Shown: positions 9,714 to 38,862 of the stretch, one piece after another
Layout: each line of letters begins with the position of its first letter
Numbering within the stretch: position 1 is the first letter of the stretch
Assembly (NCBI RefSeq): GCF_003968755.1
Contig: NZ_RYDL01000002.1
Coordinates: forward strand, 1 to 64,000
Direction: 5' to 3'
Origin: Flavobacterium sp. RSP15
Lineage (GTDB): Bacteria > Bacteroidota > Bacteroidia > Flavobacteriales > Flavobacteriaceae
Length of the DNA: 64,000 bases
Notes under the pieces: model-generated
Told to the model about the DNA's origin: nothing
Databases searched by the model: none
The model's input: the letters and a program-made list of their open reading frames with translations, nothing else
Made by a program: the position numbers and the translations under genes

Positions 9714-10358
9714 ATGAAAAAAATGAAATTGTACTGGACAAAGACCCATTCGATTATAAAAAAAATATTCTCTAATTATAGTTGGGATGTCTCCAATACA
9801 GGAAATACTGTATACCTTACCTTTGATGACGGCCCCATTCCAGAAGTTACAGAATGGGTTTTGGTGGAATTAAAAAAATACGGAATCAAAGCCACTTTTT
9901 TCTGTATTGGAAATAATATCGAGAAAAATTCTGAAATATTCAAAAAGGTGATTCGGGAAGGCCACACCATAGGAAACCACACTTTCAACCACTTAAATGG
10001 CTGGCAAACAACTACTGAGACGTACATCAAAAACACGAAACAAGCTCAAGAAGCGATTGAAAACCACACCCATCCAGACGCTAAACTTTTTCGCCCTCCG
10101 TATGGAAAAATAAAAAAATCGCAATCAAAAAAACTACAAAAACTAGGGTACAAAATAATTATGTGGGATGTCCTGAGTGCGGATTTTGATGCCACAATAT
10201 CTAAAGAAAAATGCCTGAATAATGTGTTGTCAAATGTAAGACCGGGGAGTATTATTGTTTTTCACGACAGTATAAAAGCGTTCAAGAACCTACAATACGT
10301 GTTGCCAAAAACACTAGCTTATTTAAAAGAAAATAATTTTAATTGCAACCCTTTATAA
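9714..10358 (+). CDS. Polysaccharide deacetylase (NodB homology, CE4)
   Basis: A 214-residue metal-dependent deacetylase that would remove N- or O-acetyl groups from a glycan such as peptidoglycan or chitooligosaccharide. All NodB motifs are present: TFDDGP (motif 1, catalytic Asp and metal Asp), GNHTFNH (motif 2, metal His pair), RPPYGK (motif 3), MWDVLSADFD (motif 4) and IVFHDS (motif 5, His). There is no clear signal peptide: the N-terminus is basic (MKKMKLYWTKTHSIIKK), so a cytoplasmic or membrane-attached location is possible. The start may be the second Met (9723). It converges with the thioredoxin-like gene, only 5 bases between the stops. Confidence 0.9.
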   Translation: MKKMKLYWTKTHSIIKKIFSNYSWDVSNTGNTVYLTFDDGPIPEVTEWVLVELKKYGIKATFFCIGNNIEKNSEIFKKVIREGHTIGNHTFNHLNGWQTTTETYIKNTKQAQEAIENHTHPDAKLFRPPYGKIKKSQSKKLQKLGYKIIMWDVLSADFDATISKEKCLNNVLSNVRPGSIIVFHDSIKAFKNLQYVLPKTLAYLKENNFNCNPL

Positions 10359-10363
10359 AAATA

Positions 10364-10660
10364 TTACAATTGTTCCTGAACGAGACTAATTATCGTATTG
10401 GCGTCAAGTTCTCCGGACTGTCTCCAGATCATCTGACCTTGTTTATAGATCATCAACGTAGGCAACCCTTTGATCCGCAAAGCATCCGCTAATTCTTGAT
10501 TTTTATCCACGTCAATCTTAATGACTTTCGCTTTATCGCCAAGAGCCGCCGCTACATCTCTGATCACAGGATGCATTAAAACGGAGGATTCATTCCACTC
10601 CGTATAAAAGTCAATTAATACCGGAATTTTAGTATTTATAAGTTCTCCAAATTTTGACAT
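10364..10660 (-). CDS. Thioredoxin-fold protein lacking the CxxC active site
   Basis: A 98-residue single-domain thioredoxin fold. The order is normal (beta1-alpha1, VLIDFYTEW, VIKIDVDKN, the cis-proline loop LPTLMIY, and the Gly-rich turn), but the redox motif WCGPC reads WNESS, so both cysteines are gone. It therefore cannot be a dithiol reductase. It may act as a binding or chaperone-like module. The protein contains no cysteine at all. A TACATTTG box (10719-10712 on the minus strand) lies about 50 bases before the ATG, so it probably has its own promoter after the upstream phosphoesterase gene. Confidence 0.85.
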   Translation of the reverse strand: MSKFGELINTKIPVLIDFYTEWNESSVLMHPVIRDVAAALGDKAKVIKIDVDKNQELADALRIKGLPTLMIYKQGQMIWRQSGELDANTIISLVQEQL

Positions 10661-23598: not shown

Positions 23599-24390
23599 TT
23601 ATTTATGACAAATAAATTATATTTATACAAAAAGACAAAAATTATATTAAAATCCTAGTCGTTTTATCGTTTTAGTTAAAAAATAAAAATAATTCAAGAT
23701 ACAGTCAATATGTGATTATTAAGCAAAAAACCTATTATATCATCGTTTATTAAGATAATTAACTGCATATAAAACAGAATAATATAAAAATATATCTTAT
23801 TTTTTACATAATTCGTTTTTTGTATAATTGCTAATTTACTATATTTTTGTAAAATTTATATACACTCGAACCTTTTCCTATTGAATATACCCAGAATACA
23901 ACCACACACAAACAGCTTAAGCACCGTCAGCAATACAAAAAACAGAAAGAAGCTAATAAATTCTATCTGAAAAGTATTTATAAAACAACCCCTGCATTTC
24001 CCTTATTTCTCTTTTTTTAATACAACAAGAACATTCCTAATGTAAAAGATCATATTGATTTTAAAACAAGTTGAGAATCGTGCTGTTCCGGCTAAACCAA
24101 TCGCGGTTAAATTCCTAAAAAAAAAAAATATAAGTAAAAATTAATTTTAATGATTGATTTTAGTGCTTTAACTGAAGATACTTCATCAAAACACCAATCC
24201 TTTTTCGTTCCTGTCAGACTTATATAAACCACAAACGGACTTATCCATTCCTGTACATTAAAAGTCTTTAATTTATATAAAACTATAGCATTTAACTTAA
24301 ATATATACCATATGTTTTTATACCAAATATAAAATTGGACTTTAGCATTGTTGCAAGAATATTTTTTAACACCTTAAATTCTAATTTATT
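23599..24390. other. Long AT-rich intergenic region, 792 bases
   Basis: No credible gene. It contains a promoter at 23820-23849, part of a 36-base element repeated at 27968. A small GC-richer patch (24075-24113) has a minus-strand translation NLTAIGLAGTARF that faintly recalls the MobA N-terminus. If the promoter drives the downstream porin gene, the transcript has an untranslated leader of about 530 bases. Confidence 0.55.
23820..23849 (+). promoter_or_regulatory. Promoter far upstream of the first porin gene
   Basis: TTG (23820-23822), 19 bases, TATTTTTG (23842-23849), an exact fit. The surrounding 36 bases (23827-23862) match 27968-28003 at 32 positions. Confidence 0.6.
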
Positions 24391-25629
24391 ATGAAAAAAA
24401 CGTATTTGATAGCTTTCCTACTGCTCCTCTTTTTAAAAGGTTTTTCACAAGGTTCTCCGGATTATGGAGCTGGGATGAAATTTGATTTAAATGACGAAGG
24501 AACAAAATATCTAAGGGTGATTTCCTGGGCTCAAATTTGGTCACAATACAATTCGGATCGCCCTTTAGATGCCAATGGAAACCAACAAGGCGATATCGAT
24601 TTTAGCGTTAGGAGATCCAGAGTATTATTGTTAGCACAAATTAATAAAGACTTTCTGATAGTCACCCATGTTGGATTGAATAGTTTAAATGCTAATTCAA
24701 TGACTCCAACCGGACTTGGTGATGGCTCACAATTTTTTCTTCATGATGCATGGGCACAATACAGTTTGGGCGCAAATAATGCCGTGGGCGCAGGGCTGCA
24801 TTATTGGAACGGAATCTCCAGAATGAACAACCAAGGAACTTTAAACTTAATGACCTTAGACAATACGCGTCAAGGCTGGGCTACGCTGGGTTTATCGGAT
24901 CAATTTGCTAGACATATTGGGGTTTATGCAAAAGGAACCGTTGGAAAGTTACAGTATCGCGTTTCTGTGAATGAAGCCTCAAATAATAATTTAGAACAAT
25001 TAGTTGTGCCTACTAATGGCGGAGCCGCTACCTATACAGGCAGAAGGTTATTGGGTTCAAAAGCTGCGGGAAAAACCTTTGCCGGTTATTTTGAATACAG
25101 CCTTTTTGATACCGAAAGCAATGTTTTGCCCTATAAAGTAGGATCCTATTTAGGAACACAAAAAGTATTTAATATTGGAGCCGGATTTTTTTCCCATCCT
25201 AATGGTGCAGTCGTAGCGGATGCTTCGGGAAATATAAGTGGTGAAAATGTAAACATTTTTGCTCTGGATGCTTTTTACGATGTCCCAGTTGGCACTAAAG
25301 GAGGAGCCATAACCGCTTATGGTATGTTTCAAAAAACAGATTATGGCAAAAATTTTAGATTAGGAACTACATACGAAACTGGCTCTCTAGTTCACGGTCA
25401 TTTAGGGTATGTTATTCCGGGAGAATCTAAAAACCGTATCCAGCCGTATGTATCTTATGACAATCGTCAAATTGATGTTTTAGATGATTCTGCAAATCAA
25501 TTTGGAATTGGCGCCAATGCTTATTTCAGTGGCCATAATTCAAAATTAACGTTAGAATTTCAATCTCTGAAATATGCTACGTTCAACACCATCAATACAA
25601 TTACATTACAAGCCATGATCTATTTATAA
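24391..25629 (+). CDS. Outer-membrane beta-barrel porin, first paralogue
   Basis: A 412-residue exported protein: signal peptide with cut near GFSQ (residue about 20), then a beta-rich sequence with alternating aromatic and polar residues. It ends in LQAMIYL, a typical C-terminal beta-strand for barrel assembly. It starts SPDYGAGMKFDLNDEGTKYLRVISWAQIW, closely matching the porin at 28527 (STDYGAGLKFNLNEDGSKFMRVIAWNQIW), so the two are paralogues. It directly precedes the DUF4212/symporter pair, suggesting it lets the same small acid or solute through the outer membrane. The substrate is inferred from context only. Confidence 0.8.
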   Translation: MKKTYLIAFLLLLFLKGFSQGSPDYGAGMKFDLNDEGTKYLRVISWAQIWSQYNSDRPLDANGNQQGDIDFSVRRSRVLLLAQINKDFLIVTHVGLNSLNANSMTPTGLGDGSQFFLHDAWAQYSLGANNAVGAGLHYWNGISRMNNQGTLNLMTLDNTRQGWATLGLSDQFARHIGVYAKGTVGKLQYRVSVNEASNNNLEQLVVPTNGGAATYTGRRLLGSKAAGKTFAGYFEYSLFDTESNVLPYKVGSYLGTQKVFNIGAGFFSHPNGAVVADASGNISGENVNIFALDAFYDVPVGTKGGAITAYGMFQKTDYGKNFRLGTTYETGSLVHGHLGYVIPGESKNRIQPYVSYDNRQIDVLDDSANQFGIGANAYFSGHNSKLTLEFQSLKYATFNTINTITLQAMIYL

Positions 25630-25651
25630 ATTAATCTATTAAAAAAACAGT

Positions 25652-25909
25652 ATGACAACACAAGAAAACGCAAGCGCCTATTGGAAGGAAAATTTACGAT
25701 ACCTCTTTATTTTACTAGCGATCTGGTTTATCGCTTCTTTTGGAGCAGGAATACTATTTGCAGAACAATTAAACACCATAAAACTGGGTGGATTCCCACT
25801 AGGATTTTGGTTTGCACAGCAAGGTTCCATTTATGTTTTTGTCGTTCTAATTTTTGTCTATGTTCATTTGATGAATAAATTAGACAAGAAATATGGTTAT
25901 GACGAATAG
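25652..25909 (+). CDS. DUF4212 small subunit of a sodium:solute symporter
   Basis: An 85-residue protein with two hydrophobic helices (about 15-35 and 52-74). It has the family features of DUF4212: YWKENLRYL at the start, a short loop with GFPLGFWFAQQGSIYVF, and the MNKLDKKYGYDE tail. In many bacteria this protein is encoded directly before a symporter of the VC_2705 subfamily, as here (39 bases apart), and is believed to be its partner subunit. Probably co-transcribed with the porin 22 bases upstream. Confidence 0.9.
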   Translation: MTTQENASAYWKENLRYLFILLAIWFIASFGAGILFAEQLNTIKLGGFPLGFWFAQQGSIYVFVVLIFVYVHLMNKLDKKYGYDE

Positions 25910-25948
25910 GTTTTTCAGTTTAATTATTTAATCTTAAAATTACTAAAT

Positions 25949-27706
25949 ATGAATGTACAAATTTGGACCTACATCATAGTAGGTATATCATTTGCGCTTT
26001 ACATTGGCATAGCCATTTGGAGCAGAGCAGGCTCTACTAAAGAATTTTACATTGCAGGAGGAGGGGTTTCCCCTTTGGCTAACGGAATGGCTACTGCGGC
26101 TGACTGGATGAGTGCCGCCTCTTTTATATCCATGGCCGGAATTATTTCTTTTTCAGGATATGACGGCGCCGTTTACCTGATGGGGTGGACGGGTGGCTAT
26201 GTGCTATTGGCATTATTACTGGCTCCTTATCTGAGAAAATTCGGGAAATTTACAGTACCTGATTTTATCGGGGAACGCTATTATTCGAATACCGCCCGGA
26301 CGGTAGCCGTAATTTGTGCTTTAATCGTGTCTTTTACTTATGTAGCCGGACAAATGAGAGGCGTTGGAGTAGTTTTCTCCCGATTTCTCGAAGTTGAAAT
26401 TGACACTGGCGTTATAATTGGAATGGTAATCGTTTTATTTTATGCTGTTTTGGGTGGGATGAAAGGAATTACGTATACTCAAGTTGCGCAATATTGCGTT
26501 TTGATCTTTGCTTTCATGGTGCCTGCTATTTTCATATCGATTCAAATGACAGGAAATGCAATTCCGCAATTAGGAATGGGAGGAACTATTAATGACGGAT
26601 CAGGCACTTATTTACTGGACAAATTAAACGGCCTCTCTACTGAATTGGGTTTTGCGGAATACACCAGCGGAACGAAATCAGTGATTGATATTTTTGCAAT
26701 CACACTAGCATTAATGGCTGGAACAGCAGGTTTGCCGCATGTTATTGTGCGTTTCTTTACTGTAAAAAATGTAAAGGATGCCAGAAAATCAGCAGGTCTA
26801 GCCTTGCTACTCATTGCAATATTGTATACCACCGCACCAGCAATTTCTGTTTTTGCTAAAACTAATTTATTAGAAACCGTAAACAATAAAGAATATGCCA
26901 GTATGCCGGAATGGTTTAGCAATTGGGAAAAAACAGGTTTATTAATATTTGATGATAAAAATGGAGATGGAGTAATTCAGTACTATAATGATCAATCAAA
27001 AGATCTTGTTTTTCTGGCCACTGCCGACGCAAAAGGCTTAAAGGGAAGTGAGCTAAAAATTGATAATGACATTATGGTATTGGCAAATCCGGAAATTGCC
27101 AATTTACCGGATTGGGTTATTGCTCTGGTTGCGGCGGGTGCTTTGGCCGCAGCCTTATCAACGGCTGCAGGTTTATTATTGGTTATTTCATCCTCGATTT
27201 CACATGATTTGATCAAGAAAATGATCAACCCTAACATCTCAGAAAAAGCCGAATTATGGGCAGCCAGGGGAGCTGCAACCGTAGCAGTAGTTATTGCAGG
27301 TTATTTTGGAATACATCCACCCGGATTCGTCGCAGCCGTCGTTGCATTAGCCTTTGGCTTAGCTGCAGCCTCCTTTTTTCCAGCTATTATTCTGGGTATT
27401 TTTCACAAAAAAATGAACAAAGAGGGCGCTATTGGAGGAATGATAGTAGGAATGCTTTTGATGCTTTTTTATATGCTGAAATTCAAATTTGGAATTTTCG
27501 ATGGCGGACAAGACGCTGTTTCCGGATTAAAAGACGGCTGGTGGTTTGGCATTTCTCCAGAGGGTTTTGGTACAATCGCTATGTTAGCCAATTTCATTGT
27601 TGCTTTTATTATCAATAGTTTTACACCGGAGCCACCCTTGGAAGTTCAGGAAATTGTAGAAAACATCCGAATTCCTTCAGGTGTTGGTGAAGCCTCCTCA
27701 CATTAA
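25949..27706 (+). CDS. Sodium:solute symporter, VC_2705 subfamily (acetate/propionate-type permease)
   Basis: A 585-residue SSS-family symporter with about 13 membrane helices, related to the ActP acetate permease. Characteristic segments are FYIAGGGVSPLANGMATAADWMSAASFI near the start, AGTAGLPHVIVRFFTV in the middle and ALAAALSTAAGLLLVISSS. An extramembrane loop at about 325-390 carries an EF-hand-like sequence, DKNGDGVIQYYN (336-347), unusual in a transporter. Co-location with two acyl-CoA synthetases points to short-chain carboxylates as cargo (inference). It ends with a strong terminator, so it closes the porin-DUF4212-symporter unit. Confidence 0.9.
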   Translation: MNVQIWTYIIVGISFALYIGIAIWSRAGSTKEFYIAGGGVSPLANGMATAADWMSAASFISMAGIISFSGYDGAVYLMGWTGGYVLLALLLAPYLRKFGKFTVPDFIGERYYSNTARTVAVICALIVSFTYVAGQMRGVGVVFSRFLEVEIDTGVIIGMVIVLFYAVLGGMKGITYTQVAQYCVLIFAFMVPAIFISIQMTGNAIPQLGMGGTINDGSGTYLLDKLNGLSTELGFAEYTSGTKSVIDIFAITLALMAGTAGLPHVIVRFFTVKNVKDARKSAGLALLLIAILYTTAPAISVFAKTNLLETVNNKEYASMPEWFSNWEKTGLLIFDDKNGDGVIQYYNDQSKDLVFLATADAKGLKGSELKIDNDIMVLANPEIANLPDWVIALVAAGALAAALSTAAGLLLVISSSISHDLIKKMINPNISEKAELWAARGAATVAVVIAGYFGIHPPGFVAAVVALAFGLAAASFFPAIILGIFHKKMNKEGAIGGMIVGMLLMLFYMLKFKFGIFDGGQDAVSGLKDGWWFGISPEGFGTIAMLANFIVAFIINSFTPEPPLEVQEIVENIRIPSGVGEASSH

Positions 27707-27967: not shown

Positions 27968-28003
27968 GTTGCTAAATTACTATATTTATGCAAAATTTAT
28001 ATA
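27968..28003 (+). repeat. Second copy of the 36-base promoter-region element
   Basis: Matches 23827-23862 at 32 of 36 positions (core GCTAA-TTACTATATTT, then AAAATTTATATA). The -7 box here is TATTTATG and there is no TTG at the matching distance, so it should be a weaker promoter than the first copy. It ends one base before the ATG of the InsA-like gene. Confidence 0.6.
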
Positions 28004-28004
28004 T

Positions 28005-28424
28005 ATGGAGATTTTAAGCTGTCCTAAATGCCAAAACAATCAGATAATAAAAAGTGGCATAATCAACAGTAAACAAAGGTACTTATGCAAAAAATGCAAG
28101 TATTTTTTTACGGTAAATAAAATAGGAAAAAAGATTGATGATTACTATGTTACCAAGGCTTTACAGCTGTATCTGGAAGGACTCAGTTTTCGGGAAATAG
28201 AGCGTATTCTGGGCGTTTCACATGTTACGATCAGCAATTGGGTAAAGTCCTTTAACATCAAAAAACCTTCGCATGCAAATTACCACCCTACTTATAAGAT
28301 TTTTAGCCACTTAGAACTAGTGGAATATCTCAAAAATAAACAATTGTTATCCGGAGCAGGCATGATCATTACTGAATTGGGAGACAAGTTTATGCTCATA
28401 AAATGGGAACGATTCAAGGACTAA
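28005..28424 (+). CDS. IS1 InsA-like zinc-ribbon / helix-turn-helix protein, probable domesticated regulator
   Basis: A 139-residue protein. The N-terminus is an IS1-type zinc ribbon (C6, C9, C28, C31: CPKC then LCKKCKYFF). It is followed by a helix-turn-helix (about 45-78: LEGLSFREIERILGVSHVTISNWVKSF). The C-terminal ~55 residues do not resemble InsB or any DDE nuclease, no second orf follows, and no terminal inverted repeats flank it, so it is not an active insertion sequence. Placement inside a carboxylate uptake locus suggests a transcription factor. I chose ATG 28005 because an upstream start (27966) would put the promoter element inside the gene. Confidence 0.75.
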   Translation: MEILSCPKCQNNQIIKSGIINSKQRYLCKKCKYFFTVNKIGKKIDDYYVTKALQLYLEGLSFREIERILGVSHVTISNWVKSFNIKKPSHANYHPTYKIFSHLELVEYLKNKQLLSGAGMIITELGDKFMLIKWERFKD

Positions 28425-28526
28425 CTATATCTCTTTACATAAAAATATATCAAAATTTTTTTCTAGAATTAAATAACTCAATTTGGCACTTTATTAACCA
28501 ACCATTTAATAACCAAAATTTTATTT

Positions 28527-29906
28527 ATGAAAAAAATATTTTTTATCGCGGCACTATTATTATTGTCGCTAAAAAGTTTTTCACAAGGCTCTACTGACTA
28601 TGGCGCTGGATTGAAATTTAACCTGAACGAAGACGGTTCCAAATTCATGCGGGTAATTGCATGGAACCAGATCTGGATGCGTTCCTCTGCGATGAATCCA
28701 GGAACAATGATTGGCGGCGAAGCAACTTCAACCGCAACCGACATTGGTAATCGACGTTTGCGTTTTCTAGCTTATGCTCAAGTATCCAAAAGATACATGA
28801 TCTTAACCCATTTTGGAATCAACAACCAAACTTTTATTAACGGTGGCGCAGCAGGATCCTCAGGTACTGGTGGCTACGGTGCCGGAAAAAAACCTGGCTT
28901 ATTCTTTCATGACGCATGGAATGAATATGCAGTTGTATTACCAGAAAAAGATAAGAAATTTAGTTTTACCCTCGGAGCTGGATTGCACTACTACATGGGA
29001 TTGTCTAGACTTACGATGGCTTCAACGCTAAACTTCTTAACCATAGACGCCCCTATTTTTAACTGGCCTTTAATAGAGAACTCCGATCAGTTTGCCAGAC
29101 AAGTAGGTTTATTCGCTAAAGGAAAATACGGTAAGTTAGAATATAGAATGAGTTATAATAAACCGTATGCTACAAATTTAGTTCCTACTAATGTAACAGT
29201 GGCCGATAATGCAGTAGCGGTTGACAATAGCGGAAATACAAAATGGTCTAAAGCGGGTTATTTTGAGTATCAATTTTTAGATCAAGAAGCCAATGTATTG
29301 CCTTTTAAAGTAGGTAGCTATTTAGGAACTAAAAAAGTATTCAACATTGGTGCTGGTTTTTACACTGCACCTGATGCCACAAAAACTTCTGTAAACAGCA
29401 CGATCAACAAACATGACATCAAACTTTTCTCTGCCGATGTTTTTCTTGATATGCCTATTGGAAAAAAAGAAAACAAAATGGCCGTTACAGCGTACAGTGT
29501 ACTATATGATTATGATTTTGGTCCTAATTATTTGCGTAATGTTGGGATTATGAATATTGGCTCAGTAGATCCAAATTTCACAGGGAGTAGAGCTATAGCG
29601 GGAGCTGGAAATGCACAGCCAACGATGGGATCTGGAAATATTTGGTACACACAAGCAGGTGTTTTATTGCCATGTAAAGAAGCGAAACCTAAAATTCGTA
29701 TCCAGCCTTTCGGTGCTGTTACCTATAAAAACTTTGATGCTTTGGAACAATCAAGCACACAGTTTGATGTAGGATCTAACTTTTTCATAGATGGACACCA
29801 TGCCAAAATAACGGCACAATATTCAACTAGACCCGTATACACCTCTCTAACAAACCGCTCAGGATCATTAGGAGACTTCATAGTACAACTTCAAATTTAT
29901 CTATAA
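28527..29906 (+). CDS. Outer-membrane beta-barrel porin, second paralogue
   Basis: A 459-residue exported barrel protein with signal peptide (cut near SFSQ, about residue 20). It has the same opening DYGAG-KF-LNE-G-K--RVI-W-QIW as the 24391 porin and a final beta-strand ending LQIYL. It is about 45 residues longer, mostly through loop insertions (for example the Gly-rich stretch near residue 110-125 and a segment around 350-375), so it may have a different pore selectivity. It sits 22 bases before an MFS carrier, repeating the porin-plus-transporter pattern of the upstream unit. Confidence 0.8.
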   Translation: MKKIFFIAALLLLSLKSFSQGSTDYGAGLKFNLNEDGSKFMRVIAWNQIWMRSSAMNPGTMIGGEATSTATDIGNRRLRFLAYAQVSKRYMILTHFGINNQTFINGGAAGSSGTGGYGAGKKPGLFFHDAWNEYAVVLPEKDKKFSFTLGAGLHYYMGLSRLTMASTLNFLTIDAPIFNWPLIENSDQFARQVGLFAKGKYGKLEYRMSYNKPYATNLVPTNVTVADNAVAVDNSGNTKWSKAGYFEYQFLDQEANVLPFKVGSYLGTKKVFNIGAGFYTAPDATKTSVNSTINKHDIKLFSADVFLDMPIGKKENKMAVTAYSVLYDYDFGPNYLRNVGIMNIGSVDPNFTGSRAIAGAGNAQPTMGSGNIWYTQAGVLLPCKEAKPKIRIQPFGAVTYKNFDALEQSSTQFDVGSNFFIDGHHAKITAQYSTRPVYTSLTNRSGSLGDFIVQLQIYL

Positions 29907-29928
29907 TCAATTTTAAAAATAACAATAC

Positions 29929-31464
29929 ATGAAAGAAAAATCAACAAAAGGAATTTGGAAAGTTATTTCCGCATCCTCAATGGGTACCATGATCGAATGG
30001 TATGACTTTTACATCTTTGGAAGTTTAGCAGTTGTAATTTCAACTAAATTTTTCCCTTCGGATAATCCAACAGCTGCTTTCCTGTCAACTTTGGCAACAT
30101 TTGCAGCAGGGTTTGTAGTTAGACCATTTGGAGCCCTTTTCTTTGGAAGATTAGGAGATTTAATTGGGCGGAAATACACCTTCATGGTTACTTTACTTTT
30201 AATGGGTGGTGCTACCTTCTTGATAGGTTGTATTCCGAGTTATGAAACCATTGGATTTATGGCTCCTTTATTAGTATTAATTCTTCGTTTATTACAAGGT
30301 CTTGCTTTGGGTGGTGAATATGGCGGAGCCGCGACATACGTAGCAGAGCATGCCCCTGTAGGACAAAGAGGCTACTGGACTTCGTGGATTCAAACTACGG
30401 CAACAGTGGGTTTATTCATCTCTTTGATGGTGATTTTAGCCACCCGAAATATCCTTACGCCAGAGCAATTTGACGAATGGGGATGGAGAGTTCCGTTCTG
30501 GGTATCTATCATCATGGTTGGCGTTTCTTATTTAATTAGAAAAAATATGGATGAATCTCCTGTTTTTGCTAAAGCAAAAGCGGAAGGAAAAACTAGTACC
30601 AATCCATTGAAAGAAAGTTTTGGAAATCGTTACAATTTGAAATTTGTTTTATTAGCTTTATTTGGAGCTACTATGGGCCAAGGGGTCGTTTGGTACACCG
30701 GTCAATTCTATGCCATGAATTTCATGAAAACAGTAATGGCTATTGATTCGTCACAAGTTGACACTTTACTGGGAATTGCATTAATGCTTGGTACTCCATT
30801 TTTCATTCTTTTTGGTTGGTTAAGTGATAAAATAGGCCGAAAATACATCATGATGGGTGGGATGTTGTTAGCCATCATATTATACAGACCTATTTATAAA
30901 AGTATGTACGAAACTACCTCGATAGCCAATAAAACGGAAATGGTAGAAAAAACAACGCTAATCGCGGAGCTGAAAGAGAACAAGAAGCAAACCATGGACT
31001 CAATTTACACCACCAGTAAAGAGTATGCGGATGGAACTACTTTTCAAGAAATAAAAACCGTACATTTAGAAAACGGAATGGCGATGGTTGTAGATGGCAA
31101 ACCAAAAGTAGACACCAAAACAACAATCAAAATTACAACTGCTGACGAATGGTCGTTAATATTTCTAGTCTTCGTTCAGGTCATATTTGTTACAATGGTA
31201 TATGGTCCAATTGCGGCTTTCCTTGTAGAGATGTTCCCTGTAAAAATTAGATATACGTCTATGTCGTTGCCATACCACGTAGGAAATGGAATTTTTGGAG
31301 GACTGCTTCCTGCCATTTCAACCTATTTTGTTATAAATGCAAAAGAAGGCGGGAATCCGGAATTTTACCTCGAAGGACTTTGGTATCCAATTGTTATTGC
31401 TGCTATCAGCTTTGTAATTGGAATGGTTTACATTAAAAATAAAGACAAAAACGCTCACATTTAA
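29929..31464 (+). CDS. MFS transporter, metabolite:H+ symporter (MHS) type
   Basis: A 511-residue 12-helix carrier. Family signatures are EWYDFYIFGSLA in helix 1, RPFGALFFGRLGDLIGRKYT (loop 2-3 signature), LQGLALGGEYGGAATYVAEHAP, and WLSDKIGRKY in the second half. MHS members (KgtP, ShiA, ProP) move organic acids or betaines with protons. About 80 hydrophilic residues (roughly 325-405) are inserted between helices in the C-terminal half; members are otherwise near 430-440 residues. It follows the second porin and precedes small membrane proteins and the sensor kinase; a carboxylate is the likely cargo by context. Confidence 0.88.
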   Translation: MKEKSTKGIWKVISASSMGTMIEWYDFYIFGSLAVVISTKFFPSDNPTAAFLSTLATFAAGFVVRPFGALFFGRLGDLIGRKYTFMVTLLLMGGATFLIGCIPSYETIGFMAPLLVLILRLLQGLALGGEYGGAATYVAEHAPVGQRGYWTSWIQTTATVGLFISLMVILATRNILTPEQFDEWGWRVPFWVSIIMVGVSYLIRKNMDESPVFAKAKAEGKTSTNPLKESFGNRYNLKFVLLALFGATMGQGVVWYTGQFYAMNFMKTVMAIDSSQVDTLLGIALMLGTPFFILFGWLSDKIGRKYIMMGGMLLAIILYRPIYKSMYETTSIANKTEMVEKTTLIAELKENKKQTMDSIYTTSKEYADGTTFQEIKTVHLENGMAMVVDGKPKVDTKTTIKITTADEWSLIFLVFVQVIFVTMVYGPIAAFLVEMFPVKIRYTSMSLPYHVGNGIFGGLLPAISTYFVINAKEGGNPEFYLEGLWYPIVIAAISFVIGMVYIKNKDKNAHI

Positions 31465-31475
31465 AAAACACAGCT

Positions 31476-31703
31476 ATGAATCAAATAAAAAGAATTTTAG
31501 GATTAGTTTGGATTGCATTAGCAGCTGCTGCAGCCTATTTTTGCATCTTCACTTTCGGATTGCCCAAATTTATGTCCGGTAAACAAGAGGATTTAGTATT
31601 CGGGATTATCATCCTATTCATACTCACCCCACTAATTGTTTTAGGATTGGGAACCTTTGGGTACTTCTCCTTAATGGGAGATTACGATGAAAAAAACGAT
31701 TAA
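31476..31703 (+). CDS. Small two-helix membrane protein
   Basis: A 75-residue protein with two hydrophobic segments (about 7-27 and 43-66) and a short charged C-terminus (GDYDEKND). It starts 12 bases after the MFS gene and is followed by a strong terminator, so it is co-transcribed with the carrier and may be an accessory subunit. I do not recognise a named family with certainty; similar short proteins occur beside MFS carriers in Bacteroidota. Confidence 0.65.
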   Translation: MNQIKRILGLVWIALAAAAAYFCIFTFGLPKFMSGKQEDLVFGIIILFILTPLIVLGLGTFGYFSLMGDYDEKND

Positions 31704-31765: not shown

Positions 31766-31960
31766 ATGAAAAAAAGACATGAACAAAAGCTGGTTATACT
31801 CTCAGTGTTAATCTTATTAGCATTGAATATTCCGCTTTTGCTATTATTTGACAGTTCTAAACCTATTTTTGGTTTACCCCTAATTTACCTCTACATTTTT
31901 TCGGCATGGCTATTTTCAATCGCTATAACCTACTTAATCATAAAAAGATATTATGAATAG
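31766..31960 (+). CDS. Small two-helix membrane protein preceding the sensor kinase
   Basis: A 64-residue protein with two hydrophobic helices (about 10-27 and 36-58) and basic ends (MKKRHEQK, IIKRYYE). It overlaps the next gene by 8 bases, implying translational coupling with the symporter-kinase. It lies immediately after the terminator of the MFS unit, so any promoter must be inside that terminator region or rely on read-through. The role is unknown; the coupling suggests a partner of the sensor's transporter-like domain, as short companion proteins are for SSS carriers. Confidence 0.65.
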   Translation: MKKRHEQKLVILSVLILLALNIPLLLLFDSSKPIFGLPLIYLYIFSAWLFSIAITYLIIKRYYE

Positions 31961-34658
31961 CGTAGGGGTTTTACTGATTTTAGCGCTTTATGTCTCCATT
32001 TTATTTTACATAGCGCATTGGTCTGAAAAAAGAAGACATTCTAAATGGACTAACAATCCGTATGTCTATTCTTTTTCATTGGCAGTATATTGTACTGCTT
32101 GGACCTATTATGGCAGTATAGGAGTCGCAGCAGAAACAGGACTAGCCTATTTACCTATTTATTTAGGACCTATTATTATTATACCAACGTGGATGATCAT
32201 CCTAAAGAGAATTATCCGAATTTCGAGAGTAAATAAAATCTCCAGTATAGCAGATTTTATTTCTTTACGATACGGAAACAGTAGATTTCTTGGAGCATTA
32301 GTCACCATGGTTTGTGTTATTGGGATACTTCCTTATATTTCACTACAACTAAAATCAATTTCAGATACCTTTCATATTGTCAGCAAAACACAATCAAGCG
32401 ACAACATCTTTACGGATACAACTACATATGTGTGTCTTGCTTTGGCATTATTTGCCTCTTATTATGGAACACGCTACGTGGATGCTTCCGAAAAAAGACG
32501 TGGTATTGTAACTGCCGTAGCCATGGAATCAATCCTAAAATTAGTTTTCTTTTTAATGATTGGCATTTACGTAACCTTCTTTGTTTTTGATGGGTTTGAT
32601 GATATTTATCAAAAAGCGAGTGTCCTTGAAAATTTTGACAAAAAAAATACCATTGGCGGGATTACAAACGGAATCAACTGGTTTTTCCTTTGTGTGTTGT
32701 CTATGTTTGCCATTTTTTTATTGCCAAGACAGTTTCACACCGCCATCGTAGAAAACAATAAAGAAAGCCACATTCGAACAGCCATTTGGCTTTTTCCACT
32801 CTATCTGTTGCTTTTTAATCTTTTTGTTTTCCCAATTGCTTGGGGAGGAAACATCTTATTTGAGGGGCAAGGACTCAATTCCGATACCTATTCATTGTTA
32901 ATCCCACAATATTTCAACAACAACACCGTAATGGTTTTAGTCTTTCTGGGCGGATTTTCGGCAGCGATCTCAATGATAATCGTTTCCTCAATTGCGCTCG
33001 CCACTATGCTTAGTAACAACCTATTAATCCCTTATGGCTTTATAGGTTCACTCGAGAATGATTCCCAGAAAAAAAACAACAAACGCATCTTGATCAGTCG
33101 GAAAATAGGCATTTTTTCTCTCATTATCCTGGCGTATGCTATCTATCGAATTTTTATTCTGGACTACTCTTTGGTTTCCATAGGACTTGTCGCCTTTGTA
33201 GTAATCGCGCAATTGGCTCCTTCTTTTTTTGGTGCCATATTCTGGAAAAGAGGATCAAAAAATGGTGCTATAACAGGGATTTTATTTGGATTTATAACCT
33301 GTTTTTATACCCTTCTAGTTCCTTACGCCATTGGGATAACCGAATCAACAAGCTTATTCATTCAAGAAGGCCCTTGGGGAATTGAACTTCTAAAACCATT
33401 TCAGCTTTTCGGACTGGATTATTTAGAACCTATACCACATGCCGTTTTTTGGAGTTTATTAATCAATTTGATGAGTTATCTGGCCATTTCCGTTAGTTTT
33501 AAAGGGAATTACAGGGAACGCAATTATGCCGAAATGTTTGTAGACATCGACAAATACATTACCAATCATGAAAATGCTTTTATTTGGAAAGGAACGGCCT
33601 ATATCTCCGACATTCAAAAAGTATTGCAGCGATTTCTAGGGGAAGAAAGAACAAAACGTGCACTGACCATTTTCAATTTGAAATACAACATAGACAAAGA
33701 CATCACCACCGCCGATGCCCGATTTATAAAATTTGCTGAGAATTTATTGACGGGACACATTGGTACGGCTTCCGCCAAAATATTAATATCAAGCGTGGTC
33801 AAAGAAGACAAAATCAGTCTGCCAGAAGTGTTGCGAATTTTAGAAGAATCCAAAGAAAACATCATCATCAACAAAAAGCTGACAGACACCTCAAATGAAT
33901 TAAAAAAAATATCCGAACAACTCAAAAATGCCAATTTGGAATTAATAAACAAAGACATTCAAAAAGATGAATTTCTTGACACTGTTACCCACGAATTGAG
34001 AACGCCAATAACCGCAATTCGTGCGGCAAGCGAAATCCTTCATGATGATGACGACATTCCAGAGGAGTTGAGAAAACAGTTTTTGCAAAATATCATTTCT
34101 GAGTCCGATCGTTTGAATCGTTTAATTGATAAAATTCTGGATTTAGAAAAATTTGAAACCGGAAAACAAAAAATTTACCTCTCTAAAAACAACATTTCAA
34201 AAACAATCAAAAAAACATTGAATTCCCTCCAGCAACTCCTAAAAAACAAAAACATAAATGTTGAATTTCAGGAGGAATCAAGAGAGATCAAAGCCTTTTA
34301 TGACGAGGAACGAATCATTCAGGTGATTCACAATTTAGTATCCAATGCGATAAAATTCTGCGCTGAGACAAACGGGAAAATAGTGATTTCCATTCATGAA
34401 AACAAAGACAATATTGAAGTCAAAATACACAACAACGGCAAGGCAATTAAGAAAGAAGATTTTCAAGCTATTTTTGATAAATTTTATCAATCTCGAAACC
34501 AAAACGTAAAAAAACCAATAGGAAGCGGCTTGGGTTTAGCCATATGCAAACAAATAATAGAACATCACAAAGGTAAAATTTGGGCCGAAGACGATACCGC
34601 TGAAGGCGCCACATTCGTATTTACATTACCCAATTATAATACAACAGAAAATAATTAA
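31953..34658 (+). CDS. Sensor histidine kinase fused to a sodium:solute symporter domain (CbrA-like)
   Basis: A 901-residue membrane sensor. Residues 1 to about 510 form an SSS-type domain with 12-13 helices (YCTAWTYYGSIGVAAETGLAYLPIYLGP; ISSIADFISLRYGNS). A linker with a coiled coil follows (about 630-665), then a histidine kinase: H-box THELRTP with H680, N-box VIHNLVSNAIKF and G-box GSGLGLAICKQI. The plan matches CbrA of pseudomonads, which couples solute transport to signalling. The next gene, 2 bases on, is a receiver-only regulator. It may sense the carboxylate handled by this locus. Confidence 0.9.
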   Translation: MNSVGVLLILALYVSILFYIAHWSEKRRHSKWTNNPYVYSFSLAVYCTAWTYYGSIGVAAETGLAYLPIYLGPIIIIPTWMIILKRIIRISRVNKISSIADFISLRYGNSRFLGALVTMVCVIGILPYISLQLKSISDTFHIVSKTQSSDNIFTDTTTYVCLALALFASYYGTRYVDASEKRRGIVTAVAMESILKLVFFLMIGIYVTFFVFDGFDDIYQKASVLENFDKKNTIGGITNGINWFFLCVLSMFAIFLLPRQFHTAIVENNKESHIRTAIWLFPLYLLLFNLFVFPIAWGGNILFEGQGLNSDTYSLLIPQYFNNNTVMVLVFLGGFSAAISMIIVSSIALATMLSNNLLIPYGFIGSLENDSQKKNNKRILISRKIGIFSLIILAYAIYRIFILDYSLVSIGLVAFVVIAQLAPSFFGAIFWKRGSKNGAITGILFGFITCFYTLLVPYAIGITESTSLFIQEGPWGIELLKPFQLFGLDYLEPIPHAVFWSLLINLMSYLAISVSFKGNYRERNYAEMFVDIDKYITNHENAFIWKGTAYISDIQKVLQRFLGEERTKRALTIFNLKYNIDKDITTADARFIKFAENLLTGHIGTASAKILISSVVKEDKISLPEVLRILEESKENIIINKKLTDTSNELKKISEQLKNANLELINKDIQKDEFLDTVTHELRTPITAIRAASEILHDDDDIPEELRKQFLQNIISESDRLNRLIDKILDLEKFETGKQKIYLSKNNISKTIKKTLNSLQQLLKNKNINVEFQEESREIKAFYDEERIIQVIHNLVSNAIKFCAETNGKIVISIHENKDNIEVKIHNNGKAIKKEDFQAIFDKFYQSRNQNVKKPIGSGLGLAICKQIIEHHKGKIWAEDDTAEGATFVFTLPNYNTTENN

Positions 34659-34660
34659 AA

Positions 34661-35023
34661 ATGAAAAAAATTTTAATTGTAGATGACGAACCAAATATTG
34701 TAATGTCATTAGAGTACACTTTCAAAAAGAACAATTTTGAAGTTTTCATTGCGCGCGACGGTCAGGAAGCATTGGATATTTTAAAAAATAAACTTCCGGA
34801 TGTCATTATTCTTGATGTCATGATGCCTATGGTGGACGGGTATGCCACATTAGAGCAAATAAAAAAAGACGAACGGTTGCAGCATTGCAAAGTCATTTTC
34901 CTTTCGGCAAAAAACAAGGAAAAGGACATTGAAAAAGGCCTTTCATTAGGCGCTAATTTATATGTAGTCAAGCCTTTTTCAATCAAAAAGTTAGTCGACC
35001 AAGTTCATGAATTAATTCAATAA
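34661..35023 (+). CDS. Receiver-only response regulator (CheY-like)
   Basis: A 120-residue single receiver domain. The acidic pair is D8/D9, the phosphorylation site D52 (IILDVMMP), the switch residue S82 and the conserved lysine K104 (VVKPFS). No DNA-binding domain is attached, unlike the partner CbrB of CbrA-type kinases. It lies 2 bases after the kinase gene and 17 before prpE, so all four are likely one operon. Output must go through protein-protein contact or phosphotransfer to another protein. Length and motifs are otherwise normal. Confidence 0.92.
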   Translation: MKKILIVDDEPNIVMSLEYTFKKNNFEVFIARDGQEALDILKNKLPDVIILDVMMPMVDGYATLEQIKKDERLQHCKVIFLSAKNKEKDIEKGLSLGANLYVVKPFSIKKLVDQVHELIQ

Positions 35024-35040
35024 GAAACAAATTCAACACA

Positions 35041-36939
35041 ATGACATACAAGGAAATTTATGAGGAAAGCATTGAGCAGCCAGAAAAATTCTGGGCTGAA
35101 CAAGCTGATGCAATTGAGTGGTACAACAAACCGGAGACAATTTTGTCAAAAGACGAAAATGGCTATCCGCTTTGGTACAAAGATGGCGAATTGAACATTT
35201 GTTACCTGGCGTTAGACAAACACATTCAGGATGGCTGTGGGGACCAGGTCGCTTTTATTTATGACTCTCCGGTAACACAAACCGTAAAAAAATACACTTT
35301 TTCGGAAGTAAAAACCGAAGTTGCAAAACTCGCAGGAGGCATGCAATCACTGGGATTAAAAAAAGGCGACACCGCAATAATTTACATGCCCATGATTCCA
35401 CAAACAGCTTTTGCCATGTTGGCTTGCGCAAGAATTGGCGTAATCCATTCCGTTGTTTTTGGAGGTTTTGCACCACATGAATTGGCCATCAGAATCGATG
35501 ATTGCAAACCCCGGGCCATTATTACCGCTTCTTCGGGAATTGAAGTGGATCGTTTGATTGCGTACAAACCTTTGGTCGATCAAGCTATTGAACTCGCTTC
35601 ACACCGACCAAAAAAAGTAATCGTTTTCAACAGAAAATTAGGCGCCCGAATTCCGTTTAAGAAATATGATGTAGATTATGATGCCTTGGTTTATGGCTCA
35701 GAAGAAACTCCTTGTGTTCCTGTAAATTCAAATCATCCGCTTTATATTTTGTATACTTCGGGAACGACGGGAAAGCCAAAAGGAATTGTAAGAGATACTG
35801 GTGGATATGCTGTGGCATTGAAATTCTCTATGAAATACATCTATAATGTCAAAGAAGGCGAGACTTTTTGGGCCGCATCAGATATGGGTTGGGCAGTAGG
35901 TCATAGCTACATCCTTTACGCTCCGTTATTAAATCGAAATACTACCATAATTTTTGAAGGCAAACCGATTAAAACTCCCGATGCGAGTACGTTTTGGAGA
36001 ATAATTTCAGAGCATAAAGTGGGCACTATGTTTACGGCTCCTACCGCCATTAGAGCTATCAAAAAAGAAGATCCTGATGGAACATTCATCAAACAATATG
36101 ATTTAAGTTGTCTCAAAAATCAATTTTTGGCGGGCGAACGTTGTGATAATGCCACTTTAGAATGGTATCAACAACACATTCCTATTCCTGTAATTGACCA
36201 TTGGTGGCAAACAGAATCAGGCTGGCCAATGATTGCCAATTCTCTCGGCATTGAAAAAATGCCGGTGAAATTCGGTTCTGCCACAAAAGCAGTTTGCGGA
36301 TATGATATTCGGATTTTCAATGAAAACGGTGACGAATTAAGCGCCAATGAAGAAGGCTTGGTTGTCATAAAATTACCTTTGCCTCCGGGAAATATGTTGG
36401 GTATCTGGGAAAACGAAGCCCGTTTTAAAGCCAGTTATTTCAGCAAATTTGATGGCTATTATCTATCTGGTGATGGTGGTTATAAAGATGAGGACGGTTA
36501 TATTTTCATCACCGGAAGAACGGATGATGTTATCAATGTAGCAGGACACCGCTTATCTACAGCTGAAATGGAAGAAGTTGTTGCTTCCCACCGATTCGTT
36601 GCAGAGTGTGCGGTCATTGGAATTCAAGATGATTTGAAAGGACAAATTCCGTTGGCATTGGTCGTAACGAAATTAGATATTGCAATAGAGCATTATCAAT
36701 TGGAGCAAGAAATTATTAAATTGATTCGCCAGCAAATTGGAGCGGTCACTTCTTTACGAAATGTAGTTATTGTAACGCGCTTACCAAAAACGCGCTCGGG
36801 AAAAACCCTTCGGAAACTACTGCGCAACATTGCAGATGGTGCCGAATTCCAAATTCCGTCGACCATTGACGACGAATCGATTGTGGAAGAAATTATCACC
36901 GCATTAAAAAAGTATAAAATAGGAATTAACAACATATAA
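35041..36939 (+). CDS. prpE: Propionyl-CoA synthetase-like acyl-CoA ligase (PrpE/ACSS3 type)
   Basis: A 632-residue AMP-forming ligase that activates a short acyl acid to acyl-CoA with ATP. The P-loop is YTSGTTGKPKG (238-248), the adenylate motif is near DHWWQTESGW, and the acetylatable lysine is K588 in KTRSGKTLRK. The segments GETFWAASDMGWAVGHSYI and LAGERCDNATLEWY resemble the PrpE/ACSS3 branch, hence propionate rather than acetate, though acetate may also be used. It follows the response regulator and precedes acs by 15 bases, consistent with one operon for two carboxylates. Confidence 0.8.
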   Translation: MTYKEIYEESIEQPEKFWAEQADAIEWYNKPETILSKDENGYPLWYKDGELNICYLALDKHIQDGCGDQVAFIYDSPVTQTVKKYTFSEVKTEVAKLAGGMQSLGLKKGDTAIIYMPMIPQTAFAMLACARIGVIHSVVFGGFAPHELAIRIDDCKPRAIITASSGIEVDRLIAYKPLVDQAIELASHRPKKVIVFNRKLGARIPFKKYDVDYDALVYGSEETPCVPVNSNHPLYILYTSGTTGKPKGIVRDTGGYAVALKFSMKYIYNVKEGETFWAASDMGWAVGHSYILYAPLLNRNTTIIFEGKPIKTPDASTFWRIISEHKVGTMFTAPTAIRAIKKEDPDGTFIKQYDLSCLKNQFLAGERCDNATLEWYQQHIPIPVIDHWWQTESGWPMIANSLGIEKMPVKFGSATKAVCGYDIRIFNENGDELSANEEGLVVIKLPLPPGNMLGIWENEARFKASYFSKFDGYYLSGDGGYKDEDGYIFITGRTDDVINVAGHRLSTAEMEEVVASHRFVAECAVIGIQDDLKGQIPLALVVTKLDIAIEHYQLEQEIIKLIRQQIGAVTSLRNVVIVTRLPKTRSGKTLRKLLRNIADGAEFQIPSTIDDESIVEEIITALKKYKIGINNI

Positions 36940-36954
36940 AATTTATCAATAATC

Positions 36955-38862
36955 ATGAGTTACTATAAAATTAATAATCTAGAAGAGTACTTTAAACATT
37001 ACAAAAAATCAATTCGTGAACCGGGAAAATTCTGGGACAAAGTGGCCTCAGAGAATTTTACTTGGTACCAGCAATGGGATAAAGTAGTTGATTTCAATAT
37101 GGCTGACGCCGAAATAAAATGGTTTACCAATGCCAAAGTAAACATTGTAAAAAACTGTATCGACAGGCATCTTGCTAAAAAAGGAGATAAAACAGCTATC
37201 ATTTTTGAACCGAATGACCCAAATGAAGAGGCATTGCATATTTCATATAATGAGTTATACGAGCGTGTTTGCAAAATGGCGAATGTCTTAAAGGAGCAAG
37301 GCATACAAAAAGGAGATCGGGTTTGTATTTATTTACCCATGATTCCTGAATTAGCGATTACCACTCTGGCCTGCGCCAGAATTGGAGCAATCCATTCGGT
37401 TGTTTTTGCAGGATTTTCCGCCTCGGCAGTTGCCGCAAGAATCAATGACAGCGAATGTAAAATGGTCATCACTTCAGATGGTGGGTATCGCGGGAATAAA
37501 ACCATCGATTTAAAAAGTATCGTTGACGAAGCCTTATTGAATTGCCCTTGTGTAGAGAACGTTTTAGTAGCTAAAAGAATCAACTCCACTATCCACATGA
37601 AAGAAGGTCGTGACCAATGGCTGCAACCACTTTTAGACCAAGCTTCGAATAACAATGTGGCTGAAATCATGGATGCCGAAGATCCTTTGTTCATCCTTTA
37701 TACTTCCGGTTCAACAGGAAAACCAAAAGGAATGGTTCACACTACAGCCGGTTATATGGTGTATTCCGCATATACGTTCAAGAACGTTTTTAATTATGAA
37801 GACAATGATATTTTCTGGTGTACCGCTGATATTGGCTGGATTACCGGACATTCCTATATTCTTTACGGCCCGTTATTGAACGGAGCTACGACCGTAATTT
37901 TCGAAGGCGTTCCGTCTTATCCTGATTTCAGTCGCTTTTGGCAAACCATCGAAAAACACAAAGTTACCCAGTTTTACACGGCGCCAACAGCGATTAGAGC
38001 TTTAGCAAAAGAAAGCATCGAATACGTGCAACGCTACCAGTTGACCTCTTTGAAAGTAATTGGATCTGTAGGAGAACCCATCAATGAGGAAGCATGGCAC
38101 TGGTACAACAACCACGTAGGCGATAAAAAATGTCCTGTGGTAGATACGTGGTGGCAAACGGAAACCGGAGGAATTATGATCTCACCAATTGCCTTTGTAA
38201 CCCCGACAAAACCTACTTATGCTTCATTACCTTTACCGGGAATCCAACCCGTTTTGATGGATGAAAAACGAAATGAAATAGAAGGGAATCAGGTTACCGG
38301 AAGTTTGTGTATTAAATTTCCTTGGCCAGGAATTGCAAGAACAATTTGGGGCGATCATCAACGGTATAAAGAAACCTATTTTTCTACCTTTCCAGGTAAA
38401 TATTTCACTGGCGACGGCGCTTTGCGTGACGAGGTTGGGTATTACAGAATCACTGGACGTGTAGATGATGTAGTAATTGTTTCCGGACACAATCTGGGGA
38501 CTGCCCCTATTGAAGATGCCATCAATGAACATCCTGCTGTTGCGGAATCAGCCATTGTAGGTTTCCCGCATGATATCAAAGGAAATGCGTTGTATGGTTT
38601 TGTAATTCTAAAAGAAACCGGAGAATATCGCGACAGAGAAAACCTGAGTAAAGAGATCAACCAACACATATCCGATCACATAGGACCCATTGCCAAATTA
38701 GACAAAATCCAGTTTGTTTCCGGTTTGCCAAAAACCCGTTCCGGAAAAATCATGCGCAGAATTTTGCGTAAGATTGCTGAAGGGGATTATTCTAATTTTG
38801 GCGATACCTCAACCTTGTTAAATCCTGAAATTGTGGAGGAAATCAAAGACGGTAAAATTTAA
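36955..38862 (+). CDS. acs: Acetyl-CoA synthetase
   Basis: A 635-residue AMP-forming enzyme converting acetate, ATP and CoA to acetyl-CoA. It has the P-loop YTSGSTGKPKG (249-259), the acetate-pocket region GVPSYPDFSRFW, VDTWWQTETGG, and the regulatory lysine K598 in KTRSGKIMRR, which is acetylated in many bacteria. Its close similarity in layout to the preceding PrpE-like enzyme gives the locus two linked acid activators with different preferences. It is the last gene of the operon; a strong terminator follows. The length is normal. Confidence 0.93.
   Translation: MSYYKINNLEEYFKHYKKSIREPGKFWDKVASENFTWYQQWDKVVDFNMADAEIKWFTNAKVNIVKNCIDRHLAKKGDKTAIIFEPNDPNEEALHISYNELYERVCKMANVLKEQGIQKGDRVCIYLPMIPELAITTLACARIGAIHSVVFAGFSASAVAARINDSECKMVITSDGGYRGNKTIDLKSIVDEALLNCPCVENVLVAKRINSTIHMKEGRDQWLQPLLDQASNNNVAEIMDAEDPLFILYTSGSTGKPKGMVHTTAGYMVYSAYTFKNVFNYEDNDIFWCTADIGWITGHSYILYGPLLNGATTVIFEGVPSYPDFSRFWQTIEKHKVTQFYTAPTAIRALAKESIEYVQRYQLTSLKVIGSVGEPINEEAWHWYNNHVGDKKCPVVDTWWQTETGGIMISPIAFVTPTKPTYASLPLPGIQPVLMDEKRNEIEGNQVTGSLCIKFPWPGIARTIWGDHQRYKETYFSTFPGKYFTGDGALRDEVGYYRITGRVDDVVIVSGHNLGTAPIEDAINEHPAVAESAIVGFPHDIKGNALYGFVILKETGEYRDRENLSKEINQHISDHIGPIAKLDKIQFVSGLPKTRSGKIMRRILRKIAEGDYSNFGDTSTLLNPEIVEEIKDGKI

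Follow-up and report, generated by a model that had tools for sequence, protein, structure and literature searches.

Bacterial transcription factors have been taken from transposon proteins before, as in the case of TldR, which derives from TnpB. TldRs are described as RNA-guided, phage-encoded transcription factors (PMC13418256). InsA regulates the insertion sequence IS1 from within: it represses its own promoter, competes for both IS1 ends and binds through a zinc finger and a helix-turn-helix (HTH) (PMC12428005). For acetate metabolism, the closest described system is CrbS/CrbR (MxtR/ErdR) of Pseudomonas, in which an SSS-type (SLC5) kinase activates acs and other acetate genes via a promoter motif; CrbS is a hybrid kinase that carries a receiver of its own, CrbR is a LuxR-family protein and the motif is an imperfect inverted repeat (PMC5715377). 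In a literature search that covered few subscription papers, we came across no account of acetate genes controlled by an InsA-like regulator, nor of such a system in Bacteroidota, so that for much of acetate and propionate control in Bacteroidia there may be no regulator described.

The 64,000-nucleotide stretch of Flavobacterium sp. RSP15 DNA analysed here (the window) holds a carboxylate island that can be set beside each of these systems. As in CrbS/CrbR, an SSS-type membrane part is fused to a histidine kinase and a common motif lies before acs and transporter genes; unlike in CrbS/CrbR, the receiver is a protein of its own without an output domain, so that the response regulator next to the kinase is not of the LuxR type, and the DNA-binding candidate is an InsA-like protein with another motif. 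Like TldR, this protein would be a transposon protein turned into a bacterial transcription factor, but it has its own zinc ribbon and HTH where TldR is RNA-guided. With InsA of IS1 (NF033558 / IS1_IS1595_Zn) it shares the zinc ribbon and HTH, a gene placed between two oppositely oriented site-like stretches, a probable role as autorepressor and a tail resembling the unshifted InsA frame of two elements (L313 and L314), whereas it differs in its single copy, its fixed place, the lack of InsB/DDE and of obvious IS ends, and in sites that also lie before metabolic promoters. FevR (NCBIfam NF050017) is similar in the HTH region in 30/30 orthologs (best E 1.3e-9), but with 32.6 bits against a cut-off of 180 and over residues 57-110 only, which leaves the zinc ribbon outside the match. 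The proposal of the first-pass annotation that the gene encodes a resident regulator of the carboxylate locus is supported by fixed synteny, purifying selection and a motif that tracks the gene and lies before the operon, prpE and acs, and appears to be much the best reading. The annotation had noted neither the operators nor the possible InsA-frame source of the tail, nor the receiver-only response regulator as a potential partner. We consider it likely that a domesticated InsA serves as a resident, sequence-specific regulator of the Bacteroidia regulon for acetate and propionate uptake and activation.

The InsA-like gene and its island

The 139-aa protein is laid out as a zinc ribbon (residues 6-36), an HTH (residues 46-82) and a beta-alpha-beta-beta domain (residues 93-136). 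All four zinc-ribbon cysteines named in the annotation (C6, C9, C28, C31) are there and, in the alignment of 30 orthologs, C9, C28 and C31 are invariant and C6 is nearly so; the annotated HTH is likewise found, at 26.0 bits against Pfam HTH_23 (cut-off 24.6), and is nearly invariant in the same alignment. Pfam Zn_ribbon_InsA gives 23.6 bits, slightly under its cut-off of 26.1, NCBIfam IS1_IS1595_Zn gives 38.4 bits, over its cut-off of 28, and the NCBIfam IS1 transposase model covers residues 6-113 with 79.1 bits, under its cut-off of 100. InsB is absent, as had been noted: the next downstream ORF on the same strand is the porin-like gene, and the InsA-like protein itself stops short of a DDE catalytic domain. 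The residue position aligned with the IS1 'DE' motif, the Asp of which we take to be catalytic, is variable among orthologs.

In agreement with the annotation, no other DNA-binding domain was seen in the eleven other proteins of the island (Table 1) that were scanned, nine of them by Pfam and the two ligases by NCBIfam alone among the best 25 matches. The SSF family is recognized in the kinase only via a 43% identical relative in L189, the window protein itself being without an SSF match. The small protein preceding the kinase, which holds this place in nearly all loci, has no significant family match. The transporter cassette between site b and this small protein (28527-31703 in the window; L031-L139) alternates between MFS-DUF6814 and DUF4212-symporter, a swap seen between closely related species. 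A second acs, 90% identical, lies at G000 C11:216196-218100, and its promoter is without the motif described below.

Table 1. Features of the carboxylate island in the window.
Feature	Positions	Strand	Basis or remark
Site a'	23828..23863	+	second copy of site a, before the porin A operon
Gene-sized stretch between a' and b'	23864..24282	.	proposed place of a decayed gene copy
Site b'	24283..24305	-	second copy of site b, before porin A
Porin-like protein A, 412 aa	24391..25629	+	named from homologs in the operon slot of protein B; no Pfam match
DUF4212 protein	25652..25909	+	Pfam
Sodium:solute symporter (SSF)	25949..27706	+	Pfam; 'ActP-like' is our own label
Site a	27969..28004	+	two motif units 19 bp apart (27970, 27989), abutting the gene; proposed autoregulatory operator
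InsA-like regulator gene	28005..28424	+	139-aa ORF; zinc ribbon, HTH, C-terminal beta-alpha-beta-beta domain
Site b	28425..28449	-	reversed motif right after the stop codon, before the porin operon; activation proposed
Porin-like protein B, 459 aa	28527..29906	+	ExtI porin model 44.5 bits, under cut-off 150
MFS metabolite/H+ symporter	29929..31464	+	Pfam, NCBIfam
DUF6814 protein	31476..31703	+	Pfam
Small 64-aa protein	31766..31960	+	ORF; in most loci ahead of the kinase
Sensor histidine kinase, 901 aa, ~600-aa N-terminal SSS-type part	31953..34658	+	HisKA, HATPase_c
Stand-alone receiver, 120 aa (response regulator without output domain)	34661..35023	+	Pfam
Propionate/acetate--CoA ligase, PrpE-like	35041..36939	+	760 bits, under family cut-off 955
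Acetate--CoA ligase Acs	36955..38862	+	over family cut-off

Among 100 genomes, RSP15 included, 36 have a match to the InsA-like gene at E <=0.001 and 30, from 8 genera and again with RSP15 included, have a full or nearly full-length ortholog; the 29 orthologs from other genomes are 60-93% identical. A further InsA-only frame in G006 (C4) turned out to be a short IS1-transposase-like frame of 129 aa between unrelated genes; the match in G288 belongs to an IS1 element whose InsB-like frame is separate, that in G276 is an IS1 match with three stops and that in G246 is weak and lies inside a 400-aa frame. Constant synteny, which the annotation had put forward as a check, was found in 29/29 regions, where the gene heads a same-strand operon of porin, transporter, SSS-kinase, receiver and acyl-CoA ligase genes. 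The operon genes follow on the same strand in 79/80 named loci, the exception being L126; these loci, labelled Flavobacterium or unclassified Flavobacteriia / Bacteroidetes, are the best 80 of at least 565 related stretches confirmed in the scan, and they overlap with the 29 regions, as some come from the same genomes. Fourteen further regions from other genera and families have the same arrangement (for L216, via coordinates). In L126 (F. psychrophilum DSM 3660, 9950-10545) the gene frame lacks the usual start codon and is followed not by the known operon genes but by an unrelated gene for 1218 aa, with both operator-like sites retained.

The InsA-like gene is under purifying selection: dN/dS against the window gene was 0.023-0.075 in the 5/13 comparisons with unsaturated dS, and in the other 8/13, where dS was saturated, pN/pS was 0.06-0.24. 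It is also the sole match at E <=0.001 in its own 3.39-Mb genome, and the scattered contexts with inverted repeats that the annotation had named as counter-evidence were not seen, the context being fixed and the gene single copy. Judged from these comparisons, the gene is conserved and non-mobile rather than a mobile remnant. The protein had no match among phages, and its matches on plasmids (33 records) all lie under 60% identity; of the 20 records listed, 15 are labelled IS1 family transposase and 5 have no label.

Candidate operators and the distribution of the motif

A listing of the gene's flanking DNA across loci revealed two strongly conserved stretches, one to each side. The motif is TGCWWA-N3-6-TATA, and the upstream stretch reads TTGCTAAATTAnTATATTTATGCAAAA continuing to TATATA. 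As to the earlier statement that terminal repeats are missing, no IS-like ends are obvious and only short AT-rich arms were listed, but short, conserved and oppositely oriented sites do flank the gene; the script used for terminal repeats had low power, as it gave no clear ends even for 10 loci that bear IS1 and picked an incorrect ORF in several cases. Site a consists of two units 19 bp apart in 99/119 loci with the site, and it begins 35 nt before the start codon in 90/119; divergent species have two plain repeats upstream (e.g. L049, L218 and L219). In most loci of Flavobacterium, the stop codon is directly followed by a similar reversed unit, site b. The two flanking sites are probable operators of the InsA-like gene.

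The strict motif lies upstream of the gene in 108/113 loci, compared with 27/1348 control upstream regions of the same loci, the 113 being those of 125 loci with unique upstream sequence of at least 100 nt. After the gene, the strict reversed motif is rare (6/112 loci vs 51/1348 controls) and the relaxed reversed motif common (76/112 vs 59/1348), and the reversed hits among the control regions are led by acs (29) and prpE (20). Counted by gene, wherever 60 nt or more of upstream DNA are free, the relaxed reversed motif precedes porin A in 17/21 cases, porin B in 45/61, prpE in 20/34 and acs in 33/44, as opposed to 0/5 for DUF4212, 0/4 for the symporter, 2/43 for MFS, 0/5 for DUF6814, 3/103 for the small protein, 0/10 for the kinase and 0/6 for the receiver; pooled, operon heads, prpE and acs have it in 115/160 cases and internal genes in 5/176. 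In the window, prpE and acs each start within 20 nt of the preceding gene and would do without sites of their own. The motif was found by eye and its regular expressions were adjusted to the very loci in which it was then counted; these are related and not independent, and the tally of control hits by gene, the site-spacing counts and the by-gene counts take in all qualifying loci with duplicates kept, so that all of these counts overstate the evidence; the Fisher values ignore shared ancestry.

Separate acs promoters carry the strict reversed motif in 7/7 genomes with the InsA-like gene and in 0/35 without it; for some of the seven, the acs counted as 'separate' is probably in the operon's own region, on the far side of a contig end. 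The 35 come from the 40 genomes of the genus that lack the gene, with G034, G035, G043 and G052 excluded for partial genes or contig ends and G046 for no stated reason; among them, L281 has a relaxed reversed motif, L284 a relaxed forward motif (within 300 nt) and L263 a strict forward motif. Second acs copies had the strict reversed motif in 0/10 cases, one of them from G031, which is presumed to have the gene. At least one of the two sites is retained in each of four loci with 58-63% GC, by a pattern that was widened after the sites had been seen; in the 12 loci chosen for this check, a site was found within 100 nt upstream in 9/12 and within 100 nt after the stop in 8/12, with 20 further hits elsewhere. 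Across the 3.39 Mb of the RSP15 genome, the site b pattern, which had been widened to include the second island site, has 3 hits, two in the island and one in a glycosyltransferase-like coding sequence, and 2 hits when read backwards.

The second island site belongs to a second pair, a' and b', of the porin A-DUF4212-symporter operon (24391-27706). Over a stretch of 46 nt, a and a' share 85% identity, with an E of 9e-11 that comes from comparing just two sequences, both AT-rich, and the spacing is 455 nt for a'-b' and 456 nt for a-b. The gene-sized stretch between a' and b' has no detectable similarity to the InsA-like gene, and the simplest reading would be a duplicated unit in which the gene copy decayed and the sites stayed.

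Kinase, receiver and the proposed circuit

In the set of 100 genomes, 29 have both the InsA-like gene and the kinase, one has the gene alone (G076), another the kinase alone (G031, whose contig ends inside the kinase gene and which has no ortholog) and 69 neither. Among 395 genomes of the phylum there are 30 strong and 3 weak gene matches and 41 genomes with the SSS part of the kinase, 28 having both; in the class Bacteroidia, 28/28 sampled kinase genomes, RSP15 included, carry the InsA-like gene, and the 13 kinase-only genomes all lie outside this class. The strong gene-only genomes are G382, with the gene on a 4-kb contig in which porin, DUF4212 and symporter follow the gene, and G262, which lacks the kinase, a receiver nearby and site b. 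Receivers in InsA-like loci (callable in 11/14) are 118-129 aa long and those in kinase-only loci (callable in 7/13) are likewise short, at 122-164 aa; acs is callable in 5/13 kinase-only loci, and L207 is unreadable among them, as its kinase frame is masked by longer ORFs. An exchange, in which kinase-only genomes would carry a receiver with a DNA-binding domain, was seen in none of the loci examined. Of ten proteins that follow kinase or receiver in kinase-only loci (L196-L208), none has a DNA-binding domain in Pfam, three matching PAS over cut-off, three the exonuclease RNase_T and four nothing. Thus, the idea that the InsA-like protein replaces an output domain is unsupported in these loci, and kinase and receiver can work without an InsA-like partner.

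In the circuit that we propose, the InsA-like protein would bind TGCWWA-N3-6-TATA, probably as two copies side by side, and the gene and motif distribution strongly suggests that it is indeed what binds there. Given the motif at the gene's own promoter and start region, site a would mediate self-repression, as with InsA in IS1, and from the reversed sites before the porin/transporter operon and before separately promoted prpE and acs the protein would activate, or gate, transcription; we hold this assignment of signs, repression at a and activation from the reversed sites, with moderate confidence. The SSS-type kinase would signal through the stand-alone receiver, a likely link to the InsA-like protein, which would fill the place that LuxR-type CrbR has in the proteobacterial CrbS/R system. 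That the phosphorylated receiver touches the InsA-like protein is the weak step of this scheme.

A structure model built from the 30 orthologs (mean pLDDT 84.6) has three zinc-ribbon strands, three helices and the beta-alpha-beta-beta domain. For the HTH, the top structural alignment is to the DNA-binding domain of GcrA (Z 7.1, 1.4 A over 44 residues), closely followed by IstA and paired domains, and the zinc ribbon aligns with NrdR (Z about 5), all of which are values in the range of common arrangements. In a Foldseek search with the whole model Lrp/AsnC ranked first, as a weak match (E about 0.01, TM about 0.25); the C-terminal domain alone gave a best E of 0.75 and a best Z of 5.0 (KCTD5), both at noise level, with PII and NikR among the matches at Z about 4. 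The weak fold resemblance to these ligand-binding regulators, together with the strong conservation of the C-terminal domain (GDKFMLIKWERF), would fit a one-component regulator whose C-terminal domain senses a ligand (acyl-CoA, acyl-AMP or a carboxylate) while kinase and receiver act elsewhere, and so would L209, the locus of G262, which keeps the gene in a genome without a detected kinase and with no receiver labelled nearby. However, the C-terminal domain has no profile match to any Pfam family or to the Lrp RAM domain (AsnC_trans_reg; probability 0.1%), and kinase co-occurrence in the class Bacteroidia is almost perfect; this reading is possible, if somewhat doubtful.

The InsA-like protein might also be a passenger of the operon, with the motif bound by another protein, be it the product of a distant gene or the receiver aided by a further protein, as in most genomes the motif accompanies the kinase too. 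We find this quite improbable: the motif persists in the absence of a detected kinase (G262/L209, with site a, and G076/L051), its strict form occurs in only 4/13 kinase-only loci (five occurrences) and is missing from the other nine, many of which are GC-rich, the receiver has no output domain, and a nearly invariant HTH argues against a bystander. An IS1 element in decay, or an InsA copy that is mobile and lies here by chance, would account for the IS1 profile match and for residues 3-114 being homologous to genuine IS1 transposases, but is contradicted by the fixed synteny and the purifying selection, to which the single copy and the missing catalytic domain add, and it is hardly credible.

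Possible origin from InsA and meaning

When the InsA-like protein was compared by profile to seven IS1 transposases of Bacteroidota, drawn from five genomes, the probability was 97.5% over columns 3-114, and the best three plasmid matches first taken are frameshift-type IS1 elements of 34-37% identity. In a Methanomethylovorans element the similarity runs up to the last residue. For the 54-residue domain, the unshifted InsA frame scores z 8.8 in L313 and 9.1 in L314, as opposed to 0.1 and 0.2 for the transposase frame, and L315 gives 1.2 and 1.6, respectively. Strictly past the frameshift site, the window protein reaches z 5.4 (L313), 5.9 (L314) and 4.7 (L316) against shuffles, and two of the five elements are without signal there (L315, z -0.8; L211, z 1.9); the zero-frame tail scores lower for several of 17 orthologs, and the z values are biased upward, since the plasmid elements were picked because they aligned to the protein. 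A domain HMM run against 16 loci in six frames ranked L313 first (E 0.00095), followed by L314 (0.028), with the others above 0.2. The C-terminal domain as a piece of DDE was rejected, as on its own it has no match to the IS1 transposase profile and the InsA frame matches better where tested.

These comparisons are suggestive of an ancestor that may have been the InsA repressor itself, with the tail taken from the unshifted frame. The first-pass annotation had called the C-terminal ~55 residues new, and this did not hold: they are conserved family-wide and resemble the zero-frame InsA tail of some IS1 elements, so that the tail may be old rather than recently gained. A further step, which we put forward tentatively and regard as rather unlikely, is that the whole repressor unit of IS1 was domesticated, the unshifted InsA becoming the output of a two-component system and the former ends becoming the operators of a regulon, later taken up by prpE and acs. 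To our knowledge, such a class of two-component output has no precedent.

If the reading of the gene as a resident regulator is true, a protein whose best curated matches are of the transposase type, and which has at least 565 related stretches of which the best 80 were looked at, would gain a function, a motif and a testable regulon. It would also be a clear bacterial case in which the repressor of a transposon, and not its transposase, became a regulator of the host.
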